A stretch of DNA of 35,844 nt. Source: Gemmatimonadota bacterium. GTDB lineage: Bacteria > Gemmatimonadota > Gemmatimonadetes > Gemmatimonadales > Gemmatimonadaceae. Shown in pieces: positions 20,407-25,038 of the stretch (positions within the stretch are counted from its first letter, which is position 1; the number at the start of each line of letters is the position of its first letter). Below the pieces are notes generated by a model. The model did no database searches. It had not been told where the DNA came from and saw nothing but the letters and a program-made list of their open reading frames with translations. A program made the translations under genes and the position numbers. The stretch is taken from positions 1 to 35,844 of the forward strand of contig JAGWRI010000058.1 of the NCBI GenBank assembly GCA_028876525.1, read 5' to 3'.

Positions 20407-22851
<2,445 letters not shown>

Positions 22852-22852
<1 letters not shown>

Positions 22853-23502
22853 TGCAGATGCCAACGCCGAATGCCGCGCTGGCCGGGGTGCCGGCCGGAG
22901 TGCAAGCGAACGGACTCTGGATCGGTCGCCGCCAGCTGTTCGTGCGATTCGCCGCGGAAGCGGAGACCGCCACGATGTACACGCCGGACGCGCTGGCCAA
23001 CGAGCTCGAGCGCCTCGTCCGGCGGTCGGCGTACCATTCGATCAGCATATGCGGACGCGATCCGCTCTCGAATGCCGCCTTCCTCAAAGCGGCTCTGGAG
23101 TCGGCCAAGCCGGCGCTGCCGGTGATGCTGGACGTGGACGGACAGCGTCCGGAGTCGGTGGCCGATCTGATGTCGCTGGTGGCCCTGCTGCAGGTGACGC
23201 TGGAGGGAGCGCCCGAGGAGGCGGCGGTGGAGCGGGCCCTGAGCTCGCTGCAGGCGGCGGCGGGCGCCGACGTGCCGCATGCGCTGGTGCTGGCGCCCGA
23301 GGAATCGACCACGGATGGGCAGCTGTTGCGGGCCATTTCCCGGGCCCATTCGACCAGCGGGGCGGCCGCCGTGGTGATCCATCCGCCGGCGGAGAGCGTG
23401 GAACGGGACCGCCGGTGGCTGACGTTCATGGAGCAAGCGGTCGCGCTGCACGCCGATACGCGGCTCCTTCTGCGACTTCCCCGCCCGAGCGGGACGCGCT
23501 GA
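22852..23502 (+). CDS. QueE-like protein that has lost the radical-SAM cluster
   Basis: I match this 216-residue protein to 7-carboxy-7-deazaguanine synthase-like radical-SAM proteins by pattern. GVQANG (16-21) stands where QueE has xIQGEG, GRRQLFVRFA (25-34) where it has GxxxxFVRLAGC, SICGRDPL (65-72) where it has TGGEPL, and VMLDVDGQ (91-98) where it has LETNGT. The CxxxCxxC cluster motif is missing; the only cysteine is C67. The GGE SAM motif is changed to GRD. It should therefore not bind the 4Fe-4S cluster. The start has a strong ribosome-binding site (GGAGGGGAGGGG) and overlaps the ddl stop. A variant queF lies 1.1 kb downstream. The function is unknown; a binding or scaffold role is possible. 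Confidence 0.72.
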
Positions 23503-23596: not shown

Positions 23597-24502
23597 ATGA
23601 CATTTTCGGCATCTCACGAACCCGACCATCCCCACGTCACGCCGGCGGTCCGCTGGATCGTGCTGCTCGCCGTGGGGGTAGCGCTGGTCCAGGCGACCGT
23701 CGTCACGCCGGCCGACATGGCCGGATGGCTGGGCTTTCGCCCGTCGGGGCTGAGCCATGCCTGGTGGTCGGTGTTCAGCTATGCCTTCGTGCAAACCGGA
23801 ACGTGGCCGCTCGTGGCGACGCTGTTCGCGCTGCTGGTCTTCGGTCCGCATGTCGAACAGGCCTGGGGGACGAAGACGTTCACCGTGTTCTTCCTGTGGA
23901 ACGTGGCCGGCGGCGCGGTGGTGCATGCGATGGTGTCTCGCGCCGGCATCCTGACCGGCGCAGCGGCCGGCGTGTTCGGCGTGATGCTGGCCTACGGATG
24001 GCTGTTCCCGAGAGACGAGATGTACGTCTTCGGCGTGCTGCCCATGCGCGCGTGGACGCTGATCGGGCTGCTGACGGGGCTGATCCTGGCTCTGGGATTT
24101 TCCGAGCCCGGTGCGGGCGGAATGGGGTATCTCGCCCATCTGGGCGGATTCGCGTTCGCCCTGCTGTATCTCAAGCGGCCGAATCCGGTGAACATCGACG
24201 ACCTGCGGCACCGCGTGGCGCCGGCGCCGGATCCCACCAACGACGCACCGCGGGCCATTCCGCGGACGCTGCCGCGCTCGCGGCGCAGCGAAGAGGTGGA
24301 CGAGATCGTGGCGCAGAGCAAGGCCGCGGTGGCCAAGCGGCCGGCGCGGACGAGCCGGGCCAGCGGCAGCCGCGACCAGAAGCGCGAAGCCCTGAACCGG
24401 GTGCTGGACAAGATCTCCCAGCAGGGGCTGGACAGTCTGAGTCCGGAGGAACGGGTGCTGCTGGAGGAGATTTCGCGCCGCCTGCGGGGGCGGGGCCGGT
24501 AG
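23597..24502 (+). CDS. Rhomboid-fold membrane protein lacking the catalytic serine
   Basis: The 301-residue protein has about six membrane segments of a rhomboid core (20-195) and a charged cytoplasmic tail. Active rhomboids carry GxSG in TM4; here the aligned stretch is GAAAG (121-125), with A123 at the serine position. The histidine of TM6 is kept (H181, LAHLGGFAFALL). It should therefore be a pseudoprotease. The tail ends in KREALNRVLDKISQQGLDSL and PEERVLLEEISRRLR, a short helical domain often attached to bacterial rhomboids. No Shine-Dalgarno sequence precedes ATG 23597. A hairpin follows the stop. Confidence 0.85.
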   Translation: MTFSASHEPDHPHVTPAVRWIVLLAVGVALVQATVVTPADMAGWLGFRPSGLSHAWWSVFSYAFVQTGTWPLVATLFALLVFGPHVEQAWGTKTFTVFFLWNVAGGAVVHAMVSRAGILTGAAAGVFGVMLAYGWLFPRDEMYVFGVLPMRAWTLIGLLTGLILALGFSEPGAGGMGYLAHLGGFAFALLYLKRPNPVNIDDLRHRVAPAPDPTNDAPRAIPRTLPRSRRSEEVDEIVAQSKAAVAKRPARTSRASGSRDQKREALNRVLDKISQQGLDSLSPEERVLLEEISRRLRGRGR

Positions 24503-24633: not shown

Positions 24634-25038
24634 ATGCCGAAGCCCGAGCTGCTGGAGACCTTCGCCAACCCCTATCCCGGGCGCGACTACGAGGTCCGGA
24701 TGGAGTGCGACGAGTTCACGTCGCTCTGCCCGATGGGCGGCATCGAGACGGACGCCGAGGAGCTGAAGCTGCTCGAAGGGGGCGCGCCGGACTTCGGAAC
24801 GATCACCATCACGTACGTGCCCGACGCCAAGTGCCTGGAGCTGAAGAGCCTGAAGCTGTACCTCTGGAGCTACCGGAACGACGGGATCTTCTACGAACGG
24901 GCGGTGAACCGGATCCTGGACGACCTGGCGGCCGCGTGCCAGCCCCGGAAGATCACGGTCGTGGGCGACTTCAACGTACGTGGCGGGATCAAGTCGGTCA
25001 TCACGGTGAGCCGGTCGAGCCACTCCGTATCTGCCTGA
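24634..25038 (+). CDS. queF: NADPH-dependent 7-cyano-7-deazaguanine reductase (preQ1 synthase), variant
   Basis: QueF reduces the nitrile preQ0 to the amine preQ1 in queuosine synthesis. The 134-residue unimodular protein has the catalytic cysteine C32 in EFTSLCP, the aspartate D53 in PDFGTI, the NADPH motif ELKSLKLY (69-76), E88 in FYE and FNVRGGI near the end. Two features are unusual. Residues 34-51 replace the usual four-residue CPxTGQPDF linker, an insertion of about 14 residues right after the catalytic cysteine. Y87 stands where the Bacillus subtilis enzyme has a histidine next to the glutamate. ATG 24634 lacks a clear ribosome-binding site. It converges with the TonB-dependent receptor gene. 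Confidence 0.9.
   Translation: MPKPELLETFANPYPGRDYEVRMECDEFTSLCPMGGIETDAEELKLLEGGAPDFGTITITYVPDAKCLELKSLKLYLWSYRNDGIFYERAVNRILDDLAAACQPRKITVVGDFNVRGGIKSVITVSRSSHSVSA

Follow-up and report, generated by a model that had tools for sequence, protein, structure and literature searches.

Genes at the locus

The window (the whole stretch of DNA that was analysed, 35,844 nucleotides) contains, in this order: mutS, a cystathionine beta-synthase-like gene with CBS domains, ddl, a QueE-like gene, a gene for a rhomboid protease and queF. The ddl gene (21842..22852, forward strand) encodes D-alanine-D-alanine ligase and matches the Pfam domains PF07478 and PF01820; the rhomboid-family membrane protease (23597..24502, forward strand) was recognized by PF01694 and the type II preQ1 synthase QueF (24634..25038, forward strand) by PF14489 and, above cut-off, by TIGR03139. 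The gene under study lies between them (22852..23502, forward strand) and encodes a QueE-derived protein of 216 residues without iron-sulfur cysteines. Its frame, as read from the sequence, is intact from the ATG at 22852 to the stop at 23500-23502, just as an earlier note on this DNA had described. The TGATG overlap claimed in that note is also present, the last base of the ddl stop codon TGA (22850-22852) being the first of the ATG, and the reported ribosome-binding site corresponds to a purine-rich stretch, GGAGGGGAGGGGG, at about 22837-22849 of the forward strand, 5' of the ATG at 22852.

QueE is the 7-carboxy-7-deazaguanine (CDG) synthase, an iron-sulfur cluster enzyme that converts CPH4 to CDG and thereby helps to make a modified tRNA base. 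The four QueE-like segments that had been pointed out before were all recovered on the forward strand, and in the QueE order: GVQANG (residues 16-21; 22897..22914), the counterpart of IQGEG; GRRQLFVRFA (residues 25-34; 22924..22953), the counterpart of GRRQVFVRFAG; SICGRDPL (residues 65-72; 23044..23067), the counterpart of the SAM motif TGGEPL; and VMLDVDGQ (residues 91-98; 23122..23145), the counterpart of LETNG.

The association with ddl extends over the family. ddl is found immediately upstream of the gene in all 56 loci with enough upstream sequence, and the start codon (picked by rule) overlaps the ddl stop in 45 of 55 loci (31 by 4 bases, 14 by 1), so that the coupling proposed for the window holds generally. 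The cbs-type gene that lies upstream of ddl has moved away or is absent in 11 of 55 loci, with the ddl pair unbroken. On the other side, the rhomboid gene comes next in 54 of 55 loci and queF lies downstream in 39 of 41; at L108:6001-7093 no rhomboid gene separates the QueE-like gene from queF, and ddl is still adjacent. In several relatives without the gene, ddl is followed directly by the rhomboid gene and often then by queF, and nearness to queF alone is therefore no evidence of a role in queuosine synthesis.

Kinship with QueE

The kinship with QueE had been put forward from pattern recognition, and profile comparison bore it out. The family profile aligned (hhalign) with cysteine-bearing QueE proteins at 99.7% (E 6e-27) over 207 columns, against at most 2.3% for sixty column-shuffled controls and 1.9% for the reversed control. 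In a local hmmsearch with the same profile over 5889 ORFs the cysteine-bearing QueE proteins obtained 36-79 bits, and the Cx14CxxC QueE of these bacteria scored about 10 bits or less against it. Pfam Radical_SAM (PF04055) was matched by 9 of 16 members, weakly and below the curated cut-off (best E 1.7e-5). The NCBIfam QueE models gave no match to the window protein and, for the best member, an E of 0.07, below the curated cut-off; an hmmsearch of the family profile against the PDB sequences did not reach QueE. TALE-repeat matches from a PDB sequence search were discarded as sums of many few-bit stretches in repeat proteins.

The predicted structure points in the same direction. The AlphaFold2 model of the window protein (pLDDT 90.4, pTM 0.87) is a partial TIM barrel related to that of radical-SAM members; its best PDB match in Foldseek is the QueE of B. 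subtilis (E 6e-6, TM 0.62), with the homologous barrel aligned over the whole length. The model of a cysteine-bearing relative also found B. subtilis QueE first (E 6e-13), which calibrates the structure search, and the order of strands and helices is identical in the two models. Together, the profile alignments and the predicted structures show descent from a cysteine-bearing QueE-type radical-SAM protein, whose alternating strand-helix barrel has been kept.

The genome has a QueE of its own (Cx14CxxC type, TIGR04508; G000:C114:10687-11310), which belongs to the same superfamily but, unlike the family protein, has all its cysteines and adjoins queC. Direct comparison with it was weak; the link between the family and QueE runs via a third QueE subfamily. 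As a parent, the genome's own QueE was rejected for being too distant in sequence. Judged by sequence, the closest QueE subgroup is the GRRQ type (Desulfuromonadales and others; L126, L128-L143), which aligns with the family over its full length, has the same strand and helix order, and has GRRQ-F-RF, HSIS, DG/NG and the substrate Gln and Arg in common with it. In the tree the family forms one clade with full support; placement inside any QueE subgroup was not obtained there, the neighbouring splits being weak and the stem long.

Residues lost, kept and newly fixed

The joint alignment comprised 70 members of the family and 16 QueE proteins. The earlier note had the three cluster cysteines gone; their loss is confirmed, but they have not merely been substituted. 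The whole cluster-binding loop (CX3CX2C) of about 27 residues, including the second and third cysteines, is deleted in 70 of 70 members, which makes it a trait of the family and not of one genome, and the position of the first cysteine is taken by another residue. The site of the deletion carries AETA (22960..22971, forward strand), invariant in all 70. Neither the CX3CX2C nor the CX14CX2C cluster motif of QueE occurs in the family, and the three [4Fe-4S] cysteines that define the radical-SAM superfamily (PF04055) are likewise absent; there is no conserved cysteine at any other column, and 7 of 65 proteins contain no cysteine whatsoever. The SAM motif GGE is altered throughout, as had been seen in the window, to G-R/G-D, in which the first G is kept, the second is mostly R and the E has become an invariant D. 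The least altered members, L095 and four others, have GGD instead of GRD, some with Lys for Arg32, and may be useful for placing the parent lineage.

Two of the substrate-binding residues of E. coli QueE, Gln13 and Arg27 (PMC11142719), have been retained and Glu15 has been lost: Gln18 in GVQANG is kept in 67 of 70 members, the Glu of IQGEG has disappeared, and Arg32 in GRRQLFVRFA (E. coli Arg27) is an arginine in 65 of the 70 and a lysine in the other 5. The counterpart of the Mg-binding Thr40 falls inside the deleted loop and is thus absent. Strand 4 has lost its Asp and Lys, strand 5 its Lys and the C-terminus its QTH, and His177-Pro178 (23380..23385, forward strand; H in 69 of 70) stands in place of the QueE Gln-Pro. 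Apart from these replacements in strand 4, at the C-terminus and in Gln-Pro, the family differs from GRRQ-type QueE by the missing loop, by GRD for GGE and by a gene that is not part of a queC-queE pair.

About 38 positions are at least 95% conserved within the family. The new, family-specific near-invariants are W23, A37-E38-T39-A40, D70, D96, R99, Q114, D155, H177 and H200, with Asp96 in VMLDVDGQ invariant and Arg99, just after that segment, nearly so. The beta-to-alpha loops, which with the C-terminal strand ends form the active-site face of the barrel fold, are better conserved than the alpha-to-beta loops (entropy 1.28 vs 1.93, p 0.02) and than the helices.

Distribution, selection and queuosine genes

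We found at least 70 distinct family proteins, only in Gemmatimonadota and, where placed, in the Gemmatimonadaceae, a family of soil and water bacteria. Within the nearest-relatives sample the gene is present in 18 of 36 Gemmatimonadaceae genomes (own genome included) and absent from the two other families of the order, apart from one chance match (G046, L019; E 8e-4) that was rejected because it lies inside a MutS2-like frame; within the class-wide sample it is present in 19 of 198 genomes, all Gemmatimonadaceae. The scan of GTDB genome contigs yielded about 60 loci from Gemmatimonadota, many of them labelled Gemmatimonadaceae, and 17 distant relatives elsewhere (as the scan uses sequence patterns, more divergent members may be missed). 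All 17 are QueE-type proteins that bear the cysteines (CX3CX2C) and have both TGGEPL and a Q-G-E-G stretch; QueC is encoded in all 16 of their genomes that were searched, and, judging by the contig coordinates, queC is the direct neighbour of the gene at least at L137 and L143.

Presence of the gene on the ddl tree takes about five changes, and the simplest, albeit unproven, reading is that the gene was gained and then lost repeatedly. The absence in G001, G003 and G034 is uninformative, since neither ddl nor the close cbs-type gene was detected there, despite a stated completeness of 95-100%; queF was likewise undetected in G001 and G003, and the chromosomal region seems to be absent from the three assemblies. 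In those other relatives in which ddl and the rhomboid gene adjoin each other, the absence is real.

That the gene is maintained, as suggested earlier, is confirmed by the purifying selection found: the 25 closest pairs have dN/dS values (Nei-Gojobori) of 0.03-0.12, and nine locus pairs have 0.03-0.32, which is comparable to ddl (0.05-0.25). The gene is open in nearly all loci read. At L125:6001-6210 it matches in broken pieces (contig coverage about 0.15), through either a frameshift or an assembly error.

The genome of the window further encodes Tgt and, in addition to the QueF of the window, its genuine QueE, whose gene lies on another contig adjacent to queC. Two PTPS/QueD-family paralogues were also seen (G000:C17:1629-2021 and G000:C242:3800-4207). 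Given this separate QueE, the QueE-like protein is not the QueE of the pathway and is unneeded for queuosine. QueE was found above the curated cut-off in 17 of 18 carriers, the remaining genome being 77% complete and one in which QueC was likewise not found. In the queF of a same-genus genome we observed an in-frame TGA (G002:C138:9224-9460).

Possible function

The gene very probably encodes a QueE-derived pseudoenzyme, which has lost the cluster loop and the SAM motif, is under purifying selection and has its start overlapping the ddl stop. As cluster ligands are missing, radical chemistry should have been lost, and the family protein would be unable to make the 5'-deoxyadenosyl radical. The new invariants and the conserved loops of the active-site face are better explained by a pocket put to new use than by decay. 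Such a pocket (its residues assigned from strand ends only), with Gln18 and Arg32 retained and E38, D70, D96, R99 and H177 newly fixed, could bind a small carboxylate or a pterin/purine-like ligand; the binding of a nucleobase or of a partner, as proposed in the earlier note, would also be compatible with the data, two QueE substrate-binding residues being kept. The most likely form, which we put forward tentatively, is that of a ligand-binding accessory or regulatory partner of Ddl, which would be made in matched amounts and would tune the supply of D-Ala-D-Ala. The coupling to ddl could serve expression alone, since the ddl-rhomboid-queF order occurs without the gene, and any service to Ddl must be dispensable, since about half of the Gemmatimonadaceae genomes do without it. 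Stated more broadly, and with the same reserve, a radical-SAM barrel that shed its cluster loop might now serve the synthesis of cell-wall precursors in the Gemmatimonadaceae, either as a dedicated, co-translated partner of that pathway or as a new enzyme in it that works without radicals.

It seems that in these bacteria an old catalyst has taken on a new and undescribed job. No radical-SAM lineage known to us from the literature has had its whole cluster loop removed with the fold then kept under strong selection in many species; the open-access papers searched contained neither such a lineage nor a description of this family. Beyond the earlier note, the analysis shows that the loop is deleted, that some residues are invariant across the family, that its distribution is restricted and that a genuine QueE exists separately, and it names the closest QueE subgroup. 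The family lets a radical enzyme be compared with its naturally cluster-free descendant, and it is a case, open to testing, in which the fold of a tRNA-modification enzyme was recruited beside cell-wall synthesis.

Two other readings rank close to the Ddl partner. Somewhat unlikely, in our view, is a new enzyme instead of a pseudoenzyme, in which E38, D70, D96, R99 and H177 would perform acid-base or metal-dependent chemistry and only the mRNA would be common with Ddl. The charged residues that have become fixed lie at the C-terminal strand ends, the catalytic face of the fold, and the superior conservation of the beta-to-alpha loops agrees with this; however, a ligand sensor would equally show conservation on that face, and the family has none of the metal or cofactor motifs of known families. 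We consider it improbable that the protein regulates the queuosine pathway, by sensing or sequestering a 7-deazaguanine intermediate, and was selected for its place beside queF. Its QueE ancestry, the retained Gln18 and Arg32, which correspond to substrate-binding residues in E. coli (PMC11142719), and the frequent presence of queF downstream would suit such a role, but that presence need not matter, as the same gene order is found without the gene, and most Gemmatimonadaceae that lack the gene were found to have QueE, QueC and QueF, just as the carriers do.

Quite unlikely is a division regulator, hard-wired to cell-wall synthesis via ddl. There is a precedent in E. coli QueE, a protein of the same fold that moonlights in division and blocks septation when abundant, independently of queuosine synthesis (PMC11142719), and Ddl is a cell-wall enzyme. 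Yet the E. coli protein keeps its catalysis and requires C31, C35 and the E45-W67 region for its second role, the counterparts of which are absent in the family, and the QueE of B. subtilis and of P. aeruginosa has no such division role. Descent from another TIM barrel (such as the pterin-binding methyltransferase group, with MtrH and methionine synthase) and a chance likeness to QueE is hardly credible: one member matches MtrH at E 0.001, and the best PDB sequence match of the profile is a methyltetrahydrofolate-homocysteine methyltransferase of the methionine synthase group (E 0.14) with a GRD stretch, but against this stand the 207-column QueE alignment and a Foldseek TM that falls to 0.35 for methionine synthase. 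The dN/dS values and the intact frames refute a decaying pseudogene, for which the lost catalytic residues might speak; the kept start overlap and the new invariants also stand against it, and its probability is negligible.
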